In this document: in pieces, positions 21,466 through 31,453 of the stretch
How positions within the stretch are numbered: the stretch's first letter is position 1
Layout: the number at the start of each line of letters is the position of its first letter
Assembly (NCBI RefSeq): GCF_025561425.1
Contig: NZ_CP094824.1
Span: 806,001-870,000 of the forward strand
Length of the DNA: 64,000 bases
Direction: 5' to 3'
From: Mammaliicoccus sciuri
GTDB lineage: Bacteria > Bacillota > Bacilli > Staphylococcales > Staphylococcaceae
Notes under the pieces: generated by a model
Told to the model about the DNA's origin: nothing
What the model saw: only the letters and a program-made list of their open reading frames with translations
The model's database searches: none
Made by a program: the position numbers and the translations under genes

Positions 21466-22407
21466 ATGTCTCCATTAATTTTAAAGCCTGTATTCAAAGA
21501 ACGTATATGGGGTGGTAGAAATTTAGAAAATATGGGATATAACCTGCCTGAAGGACGAATCGGTGAATGTTGGGGGATATCTGCACATGTAAATGGGCCA
21601 AACGAAATCGCAAACGGACCATATAAATGGAAAACTTTAGATGAAGTTTGGTTAAATCACCCAGAACTTTTCGGCAATCCTACAGAAGAAAAGTTCCCAT
21701 TATTAACTAAGATTCTTGATGCAAATGATCAACTATCTGTACAAGTACATCCTGATGATAGATATGCACATGAACATGAAAATGGTGAATTTGGTAAGAC
21801 AGAATGTTGGTATATTATAGATGCTAAAGAAGATGCAGAAATTATATATGGCACGTACGCAAACACAAAACAACAATTAGAAGAATTTATTCAGAATGAA
21901 GATTGGGATCATTTATTTAAACGTGTAAAAGTAGAAAAAGGAGACTTCTTCTATGTACCTAGTGGAACAGTTCACGCAATAGGTAGTGGTATTATGATTC
22001 TAGAAACACAACAAAATTCTGATACAACTTATAGAATTTACGATTATGACAGAATTGATAAAGACGGCAAGAAGAGAGAACTACATTTAGATAAGAGTAT
22101 CGATGTTATAACAGTCGGTGCACAAAGTCCAAATGTACCACCTAAAAAGATTGATGATGAAGACCAAAAAGGAACATTATTAATCGAAAGTGAATTCTTT
22201 ACAGTTGCTAAGTGGGAAATTAGTGGGACGTTTAATTTTAGAAAACCTAGAGACTATTGCTTAGTAAGTGTGATAGCCGGAAGCGGAGAAATCATTACAG
22301 ATGGTAATGTATTTGAAGTAGAAAAAGGCAATCATTTAATCATGACAGCAGATGATTTAGATAATCACATAAATGGTGAATTAGAAGTCATCATTAGTTA
22401 TGTGTAG
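21466..22407 (+). CDS. manA: Mannose-6-phosphate isomerase, class I
   Basis: A 313-residue cupin-fold zinc enzyme interconverting mannose 6-phosphate and fructose 6-phosphate. LKPVFKERIWGGRNLE is the typical N-terminus, LSVQVHPDDRYAHEHE and KTECWYIIDA supply zinc ligands, and YVPSGTVHAIG plus ILETQQNSDTTYRIYDYDR are the catalytic-face motifs. The ATG at 21466 follows AAAAGGATG. No mannose PTS lies beside it, so it probably serves sugar nucleotide supply or mannose entry from elsewhere. Confidence 0.95.
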   Translation: MSPLILKPVFKERIWGGRNLENMGYNLPEGRIGECWGISAHVNGPNEIANGPYKWKTLDEVWLNHPELFGNPTEEKFPLLTKILDANDQLSVQVHPDDRYAHEHENGEFGKTECWYIIDAKEDAEIIYGTYANTKQQLEEFIQNEDWDHLFKRVKVEKGDFFYVPSGTVHAIGSGIMILETQQNSDTTYRIYDYDRIDKDGKKRELHLDKSIDVITVGAQSPNVPPKKIDDEDQKGTLLIESEFFTVAKWEISGTFNFRKPRDYCLVSVIAGSGEIITDGNVFEVEKGNHLIMTADDLDNHINGELEVIISYV

Positions 22408-22776: not shown

Positions 22777-23682
22777 TCAATATGTTGGCTGTGCTTTTAT
22801 AAGCGCAGCCATTTTTAATGAAATTCTTTTAGAATTATAAAATTTTATATATTCATTTATTTGCTTTGTGGCGTGTTTTATATCATTGAATGTTTGAGAT
22901 TTGTCTTTGAATACCTCTGATTTGAGTAACCCCCAAAAGCCTTCCATAGGACCATTATCAATACATCTACCTACACGAGACATGCTTTGCTTCATAGAAG
23001 CATTTTTAATCATCTCTCTAAATAGAACACTCGTATATTGGAATCCTCTGTCGCTATGAAATATAATGCCTTCGGTATTTCTTTTAATTATGGCTTTGTT
23101 AAAGGTATCGTATACAAGCTTATTATTGTTTTGAGATGAGACTACATGGCTGATGACTTTCTTAGCACCTAAATCATAAATAGCGCTTAAATACACTTTA
23201 GATCCATTTTTCAATTTAAATTCTGTCACATCTGTTAACCAGACCTTATTAACTTTACTTGTTGTAAATTTTCTGTTTAGGATATTTTGAGAAGTGATTT
23301 CTGGCTTACTAAGTTTATATTGCCTTCTCTTTTTTCTAATGACAGCTTTTAATCCATACTTCTTCATAATTCTATATACGCGTTTATGATTAACCTGGAA
23401 TTTAGTATATAATCTCAGATAAATATAAATTCTTCGATATCCATATATGCCATCATGTTCATGATAAATCCTGAAAATCTCATCTTTTAATTCGTTATTG
23501 AATCTTTCAGATTCTGAAACCTCTCTGTTTTTCCATTTATAATAACTTGCTCTCGATATTTCAAGTGCGGCGCATATCCATTTGATTGGATACTTATCTT
23601 TTAATGCTTCGATTGTCTTGTATGCTGCTATTTGCTTGATTTTCGATTCATCAACTGCCTCTCTATTTCTTCCTGCTTTTTT
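22777..23682 (-). CDS. IS3 transposase OrfB (DDE integrase, by frameshift)
   Basis: The catalytic part of the transposase, open from the slippery site to TGA at 22779. It begins with an HTH_21-type segment (WICAALEISRASYYKW, then GIYGYRRIYI and VNHKRVYRIMKKYGL) and continues into an RNase H-like integrase core. The DDE triad is visible: Asp in VWLTDVTEFK, Asp in IIFHSDRGFQYTS, and Glu in WGLLKSEVF. The first ATG of the frame is at 23367, inside the conserved region, so expression should be as an OrfAB fusion through -1 frameshifting rather than from that ATG. Confidence 0.9.
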   Translation of the reverse strand, partial: KKAGRNREAVDESKIKQIAAYKTIEALKDKYPIKWICAALEISRASYYKWKNREVSESERFNNELKDEIFRIYHEHDGIYGYRRIYIYLRLYTKFQVNHKRVYRIMKKYGLKAVIRKKRRQYKLSKPEITSQNILNRKFTTSKVNKVWLTDVTEFKLKNGSKVYLSAIYDLGAKKVISHVVSSQNNNKLVYDTFNKAIIKRNTEGIIFHSDRGFQYTSVLFREMIKNASMKQSMSRVGRCIDNGPMEGFWGLLKSEVFKDKSQTFNDIKHATKQINEYIKFYNSKRISLKMAALIKAQPTY

Positions 23683-24329
23683 AATACCTCATTCTCCATT
23701 TGGAGAAATTTATTTCTTTGTTCAAGTGCTTTTATTTTTAATTCAAGTTCTTCTTCTCTAGTTAAAGCTTCAACTGGTTTTCCTTTACCTCTACCATCTA
23801 CTAAACCAATATCACCATGTTTTTCATACTTTTTTACCCAATTATAGACTTGTGAATAGTTAACTTGGTACTTTTCAGCTGTCTTATTAAAGTCTCTATT
23901 ATTTTCAATACAATATTTAGCTATTTCAATTCTCTCTTCAAATGTTGTTTTTCTAGTATTCATAGTGTCTACCTCCAGATATGGAAAATAAGATTTATTT
24001 TCCTTTCCTTCAGTATACTTTTCCACCCAATTTTTTAAAGTAGCATGATGTGAAATATTGTAATAGGCTGCTAGATCTGAATACGTCTTATTAGTCTCTA
24101 GATATTCTTTAACAACTTTTTCTTTAAATTCGCGTGTATAGATTTTATTTCGATTCTTATTTATAAGTGCTGTTATACCATGTTGCTTATACACTTTATA
24201 TTTAAATCGAATCACACTATCACTAATATCTAAATTTAACTTATCAATTACATTTTGAAAGGAATAACCCTTTTCATGCAAATCGAAGATTTCCTGATAC
24301 AGTTTAACAGGTAGTCTAGTTTTATACAT
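23628..24329 (-). CDS. IS3 transposase OrfA (DNA-binding)
   Basis: A 233-residue DNA-binding protein of the IS150 group with repeated helix-turn-helix units: about residues 10-60 (ISDSVIRFKYKVYKQHG), 65-105 (YYNISHHATLKNWVEKY) and 125-175 (YQVNYSQVYNWVKKYEKHG). A leucine-zipper-like coiled coil follows (ELKIKALEQRNKFLQMENEV, split), used for OrfA-OrfAB pairing. Translation starts at ATG 24329 after AGGAGG. Its end overlaps the orfB frame by about 55 bases. Confidence 0.9.
   Translation of the reverse strand: MYKTRLPVKLYQEIFDLHEKGYSFQNVIDKLNLDISDSVIRFKYKVYKQHGITALINKNRNKIYTREFKEKVVKEYLETNKTYSDLAAYYNISHHATLKNWVEKYTEGKENKSYFPYLEVDTMNTRKTTFEERIEIAKYCIENNRDFNKTAEKYQVNYSQVYNWVKKYEKHGDIGLVDGRGKGKPVEALTREEELELKIKALEQRNKFLQMENEVLKKQEEIERQLMNRKSSK
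23676..23682 (-). promoter_or_regulatory. Programmed -1 frameshift site A AAA AAG
   Basis: In the orfA frame the codons are TTA AAA AAG. Slipping one base back enters the orfB frame, which stays open to 22777. This is the canonical heptamer for IS3 elements. Confidence 0.85.
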
Positions 24330-24648: not shown

Positions 24649-25671
24649 TTGAAGAAAAAGACAATAGCGGCATTTGTTGGTGCTTCGGTTGCAGTTGCAG
24701 TATCATCTCATCAAGCGGAAGCAGCAACTTATAAAGTTAAAAGTGGAGATTCTTTATGGCTGATTGCTGATAAACATAATACAACGATTGCGAAAATTAA
24801 AAGCTTAAATAATTTAAGTTCAAATCTTATTTTCCCTAATCAAGTATTGCAAGTTCCTGGTACTTCAAATTCATCAAATACATCGAGCACGAGCTCAAGA
24901 TCTACTTCAACTTCATCAACGACATATTACACAGTAAAATCGGGAGATACATTAGGGGTTATTGCTGGTAAATATGGTACGACGTATCAAAAAATTATGT
25001 CATTGAATGGGTTAAGCAACACGATTATTTATCCGGGACAAAAATTAAAAGTTAATGGAACAGCAACTTCTAGTAGTAACACGGGTAGCTCTAGCAACAG
25101 TGGAGCGTCTAATGCTTCAGGTAGCACTTCTACTTATACAGTTAAGTCAGGAGATTCACTATCAGCGATTGCAGCTAGATATGGAACGACATACCAAAAA
25201 ATTATGTCATTAAATGGTTTATCAAACTTTATCATTTACCCGGGACAAAAATTAAAAGTGAGTGGAACATCATCAAGTTCAGGTTCTACTTCTACTTCTA
25301 ATTCAAATAACAACAGTGGATTCACATCACCGACATTCAATCATCAAAATTTATACGACTGGGGTCAATGTACTTGGCACGTATTTAACCGTCGTAAAGC
25401 TATAGGTAAACCAATTAGTACGTATTGGTGGAATGCAAACAATTGGGCAAGTGCAGCTGCTAAAGATGGTTATGTTGTTAATCACACACCATCAGTTGGA
25501 TCAATCCTTCAATCATCAGCTGGATACTATGGTCATGTTTCATTTGTTGAAAGAATTAATTCAAACGGAAGCATTCAAGTATCAGAAATGAATTTTAGTT
25601 CATCACCAGGTGTACTAACTTACAGAACGCTACCAGCTTCTCAAGTTTCAAGTTATAATTTTATACATTAA
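24649..25671 (+). CDS. LysM-CHAP peptidoglycan hydrolase (Sle1-like)
   Basis: A 340-residue secreted wall hydrolase, most like staphylococcal Sle1/Aaa (N-acetylmuramoyl-L-alanine amidase that splits daughter cells). A 25-residue signal peptide ends HQAEA; three LysM modules follow at about 27-71, 92-137 and 162-206, joined by Ser/Thr/Asn-rich linkers; the CHAP domain runs from about 225 to 340, with the catalytic Cys in YDWGQCTWH and His in YYGHVSFVE. The start is TTG at 24649, eight bases after GGAGGT. A half-match to the WalR box (TGTAAT at 24569) lies upstream; sle1 is a known WalR target elsewhere. The IS element ends about 270 bases upstream. Confidence 0.9.
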
Positions 25672-25718: not shown

Positions 25719-25885
25719 ATAATTGTAAACATAGACATGAGTGTGAATGTCTTATACAATGTTAATATTAATGTGTTGTTAAAAAAGTAAATTTTAAGCG
25801 TAATTTTTATATGAAAATAAAATTAAGATATCAAAGTAAACATCATTATGAAAATCGATCATTATAGATATTAAGGAGTATACAT

Positions 25886-27256
25886 ATGTCTGAAGAAAGA
25901 AACTACTTTTGGTTAAATTGTGGATATAATAGGTGGCGTCATACGGAACCATTAGAAGGCCAAACTGCAGTGTTTGAATCAGGTGCAAGCTTTAATCCAA
26001 CGCAAGGTTATCATGCATTTAAGACAGCTAAACCGGGAGATAAAGTCATTTATTATCAAGTGCAAAATCAAGTCGGCTTACTTGGATTCGGTGAGATCTT
26101 ACAAGTTCAAACGGGTGGCAATCAAAAAGTAAGCATCCAATTTAAATTTGAGCAATCTTTAACAATGTTATCGATTGAATATTTAAAGAGAAGTGAACAA
26201 TTAGAATCTAGAATTAAACAAATGACAGAACAATTGTTTAATCGCATTACGAAAGAAGAATTCGATTTAATTATAGGGTTAGGACAAGGCGCTATAAAAA
26301 TTCCTAGGTATTTCCTGTTAACAGAAGAAATTCAATTTGAACCAGATCAAACATATACAATATATACACATACTGTAAATGGTATTAAGAGAAATGGTTA
26401 TACGTACTATACTCAGTTAGAAATAGGAGACCAGATTATATTTTTAAGTAGAAATGCTAATCAGTCAATTATAGGGACTGGTGAAGTGTCAGATAGTATA
26501 CATAAGTTGCCACCACAACCTGGTAGAACAGATTCTACATGTATTGAAGTTAAATATCATGAAGATATTAACCCTGTGAATATTGGCGAATTAAATAGAC
26601 ATCAAACGTTAAAGAAATTATATTTCTTACAAGACAGTTCGAAACAATCTATTGCTAATTTAACAAAAGCACAATATGATGCGATGTTGGATATGAGTAA
26701 CGGGACTTACAAAGAAAGTTCAAGTAATCAATATGAGATGTCTGTTCAACGTGAGCAGGAAAATGAACCTAAAAAAGATAAACCTATTATTTTAATGCTT
26801 TGTGACAATAAAGAAGACGGTTTGAAAAAAGCGAAACATTATGTTGAACGTGAACTTGCTAAAGGTATATATACAGTAGGTCATCCTGATTTCTCAGAAG
26901 AAATGTTATACGGTCGATATTTACCAAATGAAAGTGGCGCTTTATATTATAGAGAGGGTTTCATTACAGGGCATATTACGAACTCAGAAAGAGAATGGCT
27001 TGTGATTGACCAGTTTGAAAGAATTGATCCAGAAATCTTTCAATTATTCTTAAATGTACTTGATGGCCACGAAATGACATTACCAAGATATAATCATGAA
27101 GGTAAGATGGTAAAGTGGAGTCTAGAAAAAGACTCATTCTATCGTCATAATCCTAAATGGCGCATGATTGGTTTATGTTACGGCTCGATTGAAGACATAA
27201 AAGAACAATATTCACATCAATTCTTAAAACATTGTAGAGTATTACATGTAGGATAA
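25886..27256 (+). CDS. Double EVE-domain protein with degenerate McrB-like AAA domain
   Basis: A 456-residue cytoplasmic protein. Residues 1-130 look like an EVE (PUA-like) domain: NYFWLNCGYNRWRH, then HAFKTAKPGDKVIYYQ and GLLGFGEI. A second EVE-like unit spans about 145-285: PRYFLLTEE, YTQLEIGDQIIFLSR, IIGTGEVSD. The C-terminal 150 residues resemble the McrB/AAA_5 ATPase core: YGRYLPNESGALYYREGF (pore-loop region), WLVIDQFERIDPEIFQLFL (Walker B position) and WRMIGLCYG (sensor 1). Yet no Walker A loop is present, Walker B has DQ instead of DE, and the sensor Asn and Arg finger are not seen. It would bind a modified base or nucleotide without hydrolysing ATP. No mcrC or methylase is nearby. 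The ATG follows AAGGAG. Function unknown; an anti-phage or RNA-modification reader role is speculation. Confidence 0.75.
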   Translation: MSEERNYFWLNCGYNRWRHTEPLEGQTAVFESGASFNPTQGYHAFKTAKPGDKVIYYQVQNQVGLLGFGEILQVQTGGNQKVSIQFKFEQSLTMLSIEYLKRSEQLESRIKQMTEQLFNRITKEEFDLIIGLGQGAIKIPRYFLLTEEIQFEPDQTYTIYTHTVNGIKRNGYTYYTQLEIGDQIIFLSRNANQSIIGTGEVSDSIHKLPPQPGRTDSTCIEVKYHEDINPVNIGELNRHQTLKKLYFLQDSSKQSIANLTKAQYDAMLDMSNGTYKESSSNQYEMSVQREQENEPKKDKPIILMLCDNKEDGLKKAKHYVERELAKGIYTVGHPDFSEEMLYGRYLPNESGALYYREGFITGHITNSEREWLVIDQFERIDPEIFQLFLNVLDGHEMTLPRYNHEGKMVKWSLEKDSFYRHNPKWRMIGLCYGSIEDIKEQYSHQFLKHCRVLHVG

Positions 27257-27262
27257 AATAGG

Positions 27263-27305
27263 CGGAATAAAATCTTAACACTTAAGATTTTATTCCGTTT
27301 TTATT
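27263..27305 (+). terminator. Terminator of the EVE-domain gene
   Basis: A perfect 15-bp stem CGGAATAAAATCTTA/TAAGATTTTATTCCG with a short loop, then a T-rich tract. Confidence 0.9.
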
Positions 27306-31048: not shown

Positions 31049-31453
31049 ATGATTGGAGTGATTGTTATCGCTATTGTTTATTATGATGGGGATTGTGGAT
31101 ACTGTAATCGTGCTGTGATGTGGTTAATTCATCATAAGATTTCGACTCGTTTTCAATTTGCTCAACTAGAATCTTCATATGGTGATCATTTATTTGATGC
31201 GCGACCTGAATTGCAAAATATAGATAGCATTATTGTCGTAGATGGTGACAAAGTATGGTTTAAATCAAACGCGATTATTCATTTATTAGGTCAAATAAAA
31301 GGGTATCAATTAATCGGATGGGCTTTGAAATGGATACCGAAATTTGTACGAGATATTGTCTATGATGCATTTGCCAAAGTCAGACATAAAGTGATTTTGA
31401 AAAATGCTTGTCGATTACCGACACCTGAAGAAAGAAAATATTTTTTAAATTAA
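31049..31453 (+). CDS. DCC-family thiol-disulfide oxidoreductase (DUF393)
   Basis: A protein of about 134 residues of the DCC/DUF393 family, related to thioredoxins. The hallmark YYDGDCGYCN (residues 11-20 of this frame) has the CxxC redox pair, and FKSNAIIHLL and the C-terminal CRLPTPEER fit family members. It likely acts as a small disulfide or selenium/sulfur-handling oxidoreductase in the cytoplasm. The start is uncertain: ATG 31049 has only a weak ribosome site (AAGAAA), while a better GGAGTGA lies inside the frame at 31054-31060 with no standard start at the right distance. Confidence 0.8.
   Translation: MIGVIVIAIVYYDGDCGYCNRAVMWLIHHKISTRFQFAQLESSYGDHLFDARPELQNIDSIIVVDGDKVWFKSNAIIHLLGQIKGYQLIGWALKWIPKFVRDIVYDAFAKVRHKVILKNACRLPTPEERKYFLN

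Follow-up and report, generated by a model that had tools for sequence, protein, structure and literature searches.

In a 64,000-nucleotide stretch of the Mammaliicoccus sciuri genome (NZ_CP094824.1, positions 806,001 to 870,000; hereafter the window), we analyzed a gene for a protein of 456 amino acids (aa) whose closest described counterpart is the division protein PcdA of Staphylococcus aureus. PcdA was presented in a 2023 preprint, which reportedly has a 2024 journal version (Nat Microbiol). In S. aureus PcdA, two EVE domains are joined to a McrB AAA+ domain that carries both beta-hairpin inserts of the McrB clade; its Walker A motif is degraded, its Walker B motif lacks the Glu, and it has neither a lid nor a McrC partner (PMC10602043). 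The protein binds FtsZ and DivIVA, bound ZapA in a two-hybrid test, and is found at division sites even in cells without a nucleoid. Its localization, a division-angle defect and a weak NTPase activity (hydrolysis of about 0.9 per minute) were shown in S. aureus, and an AlphaFold-Multimer model together with a triple-Ala allele pointed to R16, E31 and Q60 as the predicted FtsZ contact (PMC10602043). Changing any of eight residues to alanine caused a defect, mildest for K313. With T430A, self-interaction was lost and the catalytic efficiency with ATP fell to 1.33 per min per mM, from 13.7; the K313A and R450A proteins still self-interacted (PMC10602043). The division model is repeated in two reviews (PMC12272431, PMC12203958). 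As carriers of pcdA the preprint named Staphylococcus and its relatives, Mammaliicoccus and Macrococcus among them (PMC10602043), and a 2025 review also gives Mammaliicoccus as a carrier, with M. sciuri among its genomes (PMC12203958).

We put the probability that the window gene is the Mammaliicoccus pcdA, encoding a division protein orthologous to S. aureus PcdA (SAUSA300_2094), at roughly 0.93. The gene and its parts are as follows.

25886..27256, + strand: pcdA orthologue, 456 aa, ATG start
25886..26299, + strand: EVE-1 domain, residues 1-138, from fold comparison, with R16, E31 and Q60 kept
26300..26710, + strand: EVE-2 domain, residues 139-275
26771..27253, + strand: degenerate McrB-type AAA+ core, residues 296-456, with Walker B D375-Q376 and neither a P-loop nor a C-terminal lid

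Aligned end to end, the product and S. aureus WP_000123393.1 are 58% identical. In the S. aureus copy each of the eight residues that the preprint mutated (Y57, K114, Y187, K253, K313, D374, T430 and R450) is found at the stated number, and it is by these eight numbers, not by accession, that WP_000123393.1 is tied to the locus tag SAUSA300_2094, which comes from PMC10602043. Like the S. aureus protein, the window protein has two N-terminal EVE domains ahead of a McrB-type AAA+ domain with a degraded Walker A motif, a Walker B motif with the Asp kept and the Glu lost, and no C-terminal helical bundle. The two genes share a neighborhood and their products the FtsZ-contact residues, so that orthology is seen in both sequence and gene order. 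Full-length matches were confined to Staphylococcus and close coccoid genera of the family. The two proteins differ in that the window protein has Cys for Thr430, Thr for Lys114 and Leu for Tyr187, leaving five of the eight functional residues in place; these eight derive from one species and are not a published criterion for membership. The genome also encodes a full-length match to DivIVA (E 1.7e-33). The observation from which we started is real, the protein is one already described, and its likely role is in cell division.

The domain assignments differ in how they were reached. EVE (PF01878) was matched by the window protein with an E-value of 2e-10 in hmmscan, and structural alignments placed both units in the EVE fold at 12-20% identity to single-domain EVE proteins (2eve, 1zce and human THYN1), which have no AAA+ part, and to the EVE-HNH enzyme VcaM4I, which has a nuclease in its place. 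Membership in the McrB-type AAA+ core was found by profile match, structural comparison and BLASTP. The structural Z-scores for McrB (14.0) and NorQ (13.3) are tied, differing by less than 1, so the assignment to McrB leans mainly on the profile match; by Foldseek E-value NorQ and CbbQ ranked ahead of McrB. The McrB-like proteins used in the hhalign test came from a search with the PcdA profile, and McrB was the sole AAA+ family compared. Matches were weak in phmmer against the PDB (best E 0.023, to ClpB) and in PADLOC (PDC-M37B, E 6.1e-4 over 40 residues), and NCBIfam gave no meaningful family. The intact Walker A and B motifs and sensor Asn of McrB are missing: there is no P-loop, DQ replaces DE, the sensor Asn is gone, and the chain, which has no lid, stops 26 residues past the last aligned sensor-1 residue of the McrB alignment. 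Alignments and folds confirm what a sequence-only reading of the window had described, two EVE-like units and an AAA+ part that lacks a P-loop and the sensor Asn and has DQ for DE. That reading had also staked itself on the folds, and structural comparison gave EVE and AAA+.

All eight genomes of the genus encode pcdA, as do 108 of 108 genomes of the family from all five genera, with no stop inside the matches listed. At the level of the order 101 of 150 genomes (5 of 14 genera) had a match, all 101 within the family, and the 20 listed of the 49 genomes lacking one all belong to other families. A search of the class, in which at most four candidates per genome were scored, matched 42 of 398 genomes, 36 of them in the family; the six elsewhere matched the AAA+ part only, over residues 311-434 at most. 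Gene order in related genomes, which the sequence-only reading had named as a check, was surveyed in 48 places (the window, L009-L054 and L055). In 35 of them manA lies upstream of pcdA and in 36 a DCC gene lies downstream. Three of the 12 places without DCC have a contig end within 2.3 kb and nine are macrococcal; the 13 without manA are the cut contig L010, Staphylococcus L020, L021 and L024, and the same nine macrococcal loci. Further downstream in the window are dps, deoD and luxS, as in S. aureus. Compared with four Mammaliicoccus genomes, the ratio of nonsynonymous to synonymous substitution rates (dN/dS) ranges from 0.029 to 0.047 over the whole gene and from 0.007 to 0.033 in the AAA+ part, with some dS values above 1 and near saturation. 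The gene is under purifying selection.

Several results weigh against identifying the window gene as a PcdA that acts as in S. aureus. K114 is replaced by T or S, Y187 by L and T430 by C in all eight Mammaliicoccus, so the EVE clefts and the use of nucleotides may differ in detail from those of S. aureus. The nine macrococcal loci have neither manA nor DCC near pcdA, several of their contigs ending close by, and gene order thus backs orthology for Staphylococcus and Mammaliicoccus only. In a profile search, two macrococcal genomes (G012 and G016) had one TAA inside the matched stretch. We found no experiment on PcdA in Mammaliicoccus in the literature.

The sequence-only reading had proposed a stand-alone reader, inhibitor or regulator. 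A regulator and not a restriction enzyme is what the protein appears to be; a base reader or defense inhibitor finds no support, the S. aureus orthologue being a division protein (PMC10602043). As a reader or defense regulator, its EVE domains would bind modified bases of phage DNA or RNA and its AAA+ part would modulate another restriction system. Its presence in every family genome searched, and at a conserved position of the chromosome in both Staphylococcus and Mammaliicoccus, argues otherwise. Occurrence of this kind, family-wide and fixed in place, is unusual for defense genes. Moreover, of the four EVE-cleft residues that the preprint altered by mutation, Mammaliicoccus has replaced two (K114 is T and Y187 is L in the window), and the presence of S. 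aureus PcdA at division sites of cells without a nucleoid also speaks against such a role (PMC10602043). We rejected a defense gene or reader in favor of a family-wide core gene and consider it highly improbable. Still less credible is a decayed, functionless McrB remnant, for which the joint loss of P-loop, Walker B Glu, sensor Asn and lid and the TAA in two macrococcal genomes could be cited. A remnant would show stops and a dN/dS near 1; the lack of stops in the listed family matches and the low ratios in both the gene and its AAA+ part argue against it, and purifying selection led us to reject it. Only a decayed copy had been foreseen if relatives with an intact Walker A motif turned up. 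Such relatives exist at a distance, yet a P-loop is found in none of 50 orthologues, and the gene is kept throughout the family.

An alternative that we regard as possible, if unlikely, accepts PcdA by descent and takes the Mammaliicoccus protein for a nucleotide-independent FtsZ scaffold that dispenses with both the nucleotide switch and the EVE clefts of S. aureus. We examined natural variation at the functional residues in a table of 50 proteins, two of them (L027 and L028) identical; L001, L002, L005, L007 and L012, whose genomes were already represented, a further S. simulans (L019) and L056-L095 were left out. Besides the three replacements in Mammaliicoccus, all nine macrococci show the changes K253N, D374E and R450K, and eight of the nine have lost K313, which is kept in only 26 of 33 Staphylococcus. 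Y57 is the sole one of the eight residues kept in all 50. At the predicted FtsZ contacts, all 50 proteins have R16 and Q60 as well as E or D at position 31. Differences per site in the AAA+ part come to 0.49 within macrococci against 0.21 for EVE-1 (2.3 times), to 0.22 against 0.21 within Staphylococcus, and to 0.048 within Mammaliicoccus against 0.099 for EVE-1 and 0.136 for EVE-2. These figures mean that the AAA+ part has drifted among the macrococci and is strongly conserved in Mammaliicoccus.

The replacements and the macrococcal drift favor a scaffold. Against it, the AAA+ part is better conserved than either EVE domain in Mammaliicoccus and so has some role, and D374 is retained in this genus. 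A change from Thr to Cys, Asp to Glu or Arg to Lys can be mild, and even in S. aureus K313A and R450A did not disturb self-interaction (PMC10602043). On the scaffold account, the old core function of PcdA outside Staphylococcus would be FtsZ recruitment by EVE-1, with the AAA+ part serving for self-association only, and the ATP-gated S. aureus form would be one lineage's version; we hold this too as a doubtful possibility. The replacement of functional residues next to kept FtsZ-contact residues puts the generality of the nucleotide switch and of the EVE clefts in question, as judged from sequence. We did not find these replacements discussed in the parts of PMC10602043 and PMC12203958 covered here. 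When the hhalign alignment is extended without gaps, T430 falls on the Met, and on neither the Asn nor the Thr, of the MNT motif of McrB, so the label of T430 as a sensor threonine merits a check.

McrB of the McrBC system shares the AAA+ core fold and motif order with the window protein. Six McrB-like relatives in Bacilli have the motifs GPPGTGK[ST], DE, MNT and MRRF, none of which is intact in the window protein. Directly downstream of each of these P-loop proteins, in the position of mcrC, is a gene for 421-438 aa. Pfam gave no domain in the downstream neighbors of five of the six (all but L098) and no EVE domain in the corresponding McrB-like proteins; by gene position, the neighbors may be mcrC-type partners. 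L109, a 739-aa protein encoded on a haloarchaeal plasmid, aligns over EVE-2 and the AAA+ part together (residues 135-410 of the window protein; 21% identity) with a BLASTP E-value of 7e-12 in a one-to-one comparison, and there is a further alignment of its EVE part with EVE-1. It has the motifs GPPGTGKT, LIIDE and TMNT and, alongside, a 464-aa gene with no Pfam match. The 25 of 28 Pfam families listed for this locus do not include EVE, so the EVE part is read from the BLASTP alignment. This alignment and the six McrB-like relatives fit a descent of PcdA from an EVE-McrB restriction protein. The haloarchaeal gene (L109 3257-6873) stands beside the 7-deazaguanine synthesis genes queC and queE, and the locus is possibly a system tied to deazaguanine-modified DNA.

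The earlier proposal of a McrB-type protein with a degenerate ATPase, kept without its nuclease partner, was borne out for the origin and the ATPase and is probably right for the missing partner. By eye, no candidate mcrC open reading frame (ORF) adjoins pcdA in the window, and the genome gave no match to PF10117 (McrC) in a type of search that, run with PF01878, missed its EVE gene; the loose first look of that genome family search can miss real members. The best match to the McrB-like profile in the same genome (L104 1753-2550) is by eye a MoxR-like AAA+ protein with an intact P-loop, GPTGSGKT.

A phage or plasmid gene was also considered and rejected. Three phage and four plasmid records matched, one of each with the whole gene. 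The plasmid record (L055, NZ_CP077935.1) is 256 kb of S. aureus with manA, czrAB, deoC, deoD and a luxS-type gene around pcdA. The phage record (L110, OR845009.1 1-8348), labeled Staphylococcus phage, marked unverified and of wastewater origin, carries part of czrB, SDR, manA, pcdA, DCC, dps and deoD at 98.6-100% to the S. aureus stretch of L055. With these chromosomal neighbors both look like S. aureus chromosome, the former probably a piece mislabeled as a plasmid and the latter probably host DNA.

The genome of the window is a single contig of 2.92 Mb with one copy of pcdA, and the closest named relative of the gene is that of M. sciuri NCTC 12103 (99%). Around the gene we noted the following.

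21466..22407, + strand: manA-like mannose-6-phosphate isomerase gene, conserved upstream neighbor, named after the S. aureus annotation
22777-24329, - strand: two IS3-like transposase ORFs between manA and the LysM-CHAP gene, named by eye
24649-25671, + strand: LysM-CHAP cell-wall hydrolase gene, named by eye
25732..25760, + strand: weak promoter-like site 5' of pcdA, 10 of 12 consensus matches
25873..25879, + strand: likely ribosome-binding site AAGGAGT, read from the sequence
27260..27300, + strand: terminator-like hairpin and T run just 3' of pcdA
31049..31453, + strand: DCC-family thiol-disulfide oxidoreductase gene, conserved downstream neighbor, named after the S. aureus annotation

The promoter-like site is weak because the scan found 19 sites with 11.5 expected. 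Given the hairpin with its T run, pcdA is probably transcribed alone. In NCTC 12103 (L009) manA is about 1.6 kb nearer to pcdA, and the IS3-like ORFs of the window therefore look like a recent insertion. The LysM-CHAP gene lies 1.2 kb 5' of the pcdA start in all five Mammaliicoccus places and is found nearly full length, at most 7 kb upstream, in six of nine macrococcal loci; a tie of septum placement to cell separation is possible.

Our results cover orthology, domain folds, motif loss, family-wide conservation and purifying selection. By analogy with S. aureus, the PcdA of the window would act as an early division protein. DivIVA would mark the future division site, where PcdA would bind it and self-associate through the AAA+ core; unpolymerized FtsZ would then be recruited through the EVE-1 surface, and the next septum would form approximately at right angles to the last. 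A wider link between EVE proteins and division is suggested by EVE-only proteins of beta- and gamma-proteobacteria, reported to share operons with ZapA and ZapB, partners of FtsZ (PMC7641849), and by the two-hybrid binding of PcdA to ZapA (PMC10602043). On how general the nucleotide switch is, the window adds natural variants that test the published mechanism, from a sister genus without T430 and two of the EVE-cleft residues of S. aureus. PcdA, a McrB-family AAA+ protein, took on its role in division in the ancestor shared by Staphylococcus, Mammaliicoccus and the macrococci, and it plainly exemplifies the conversion of a restriction protein into a division protein.
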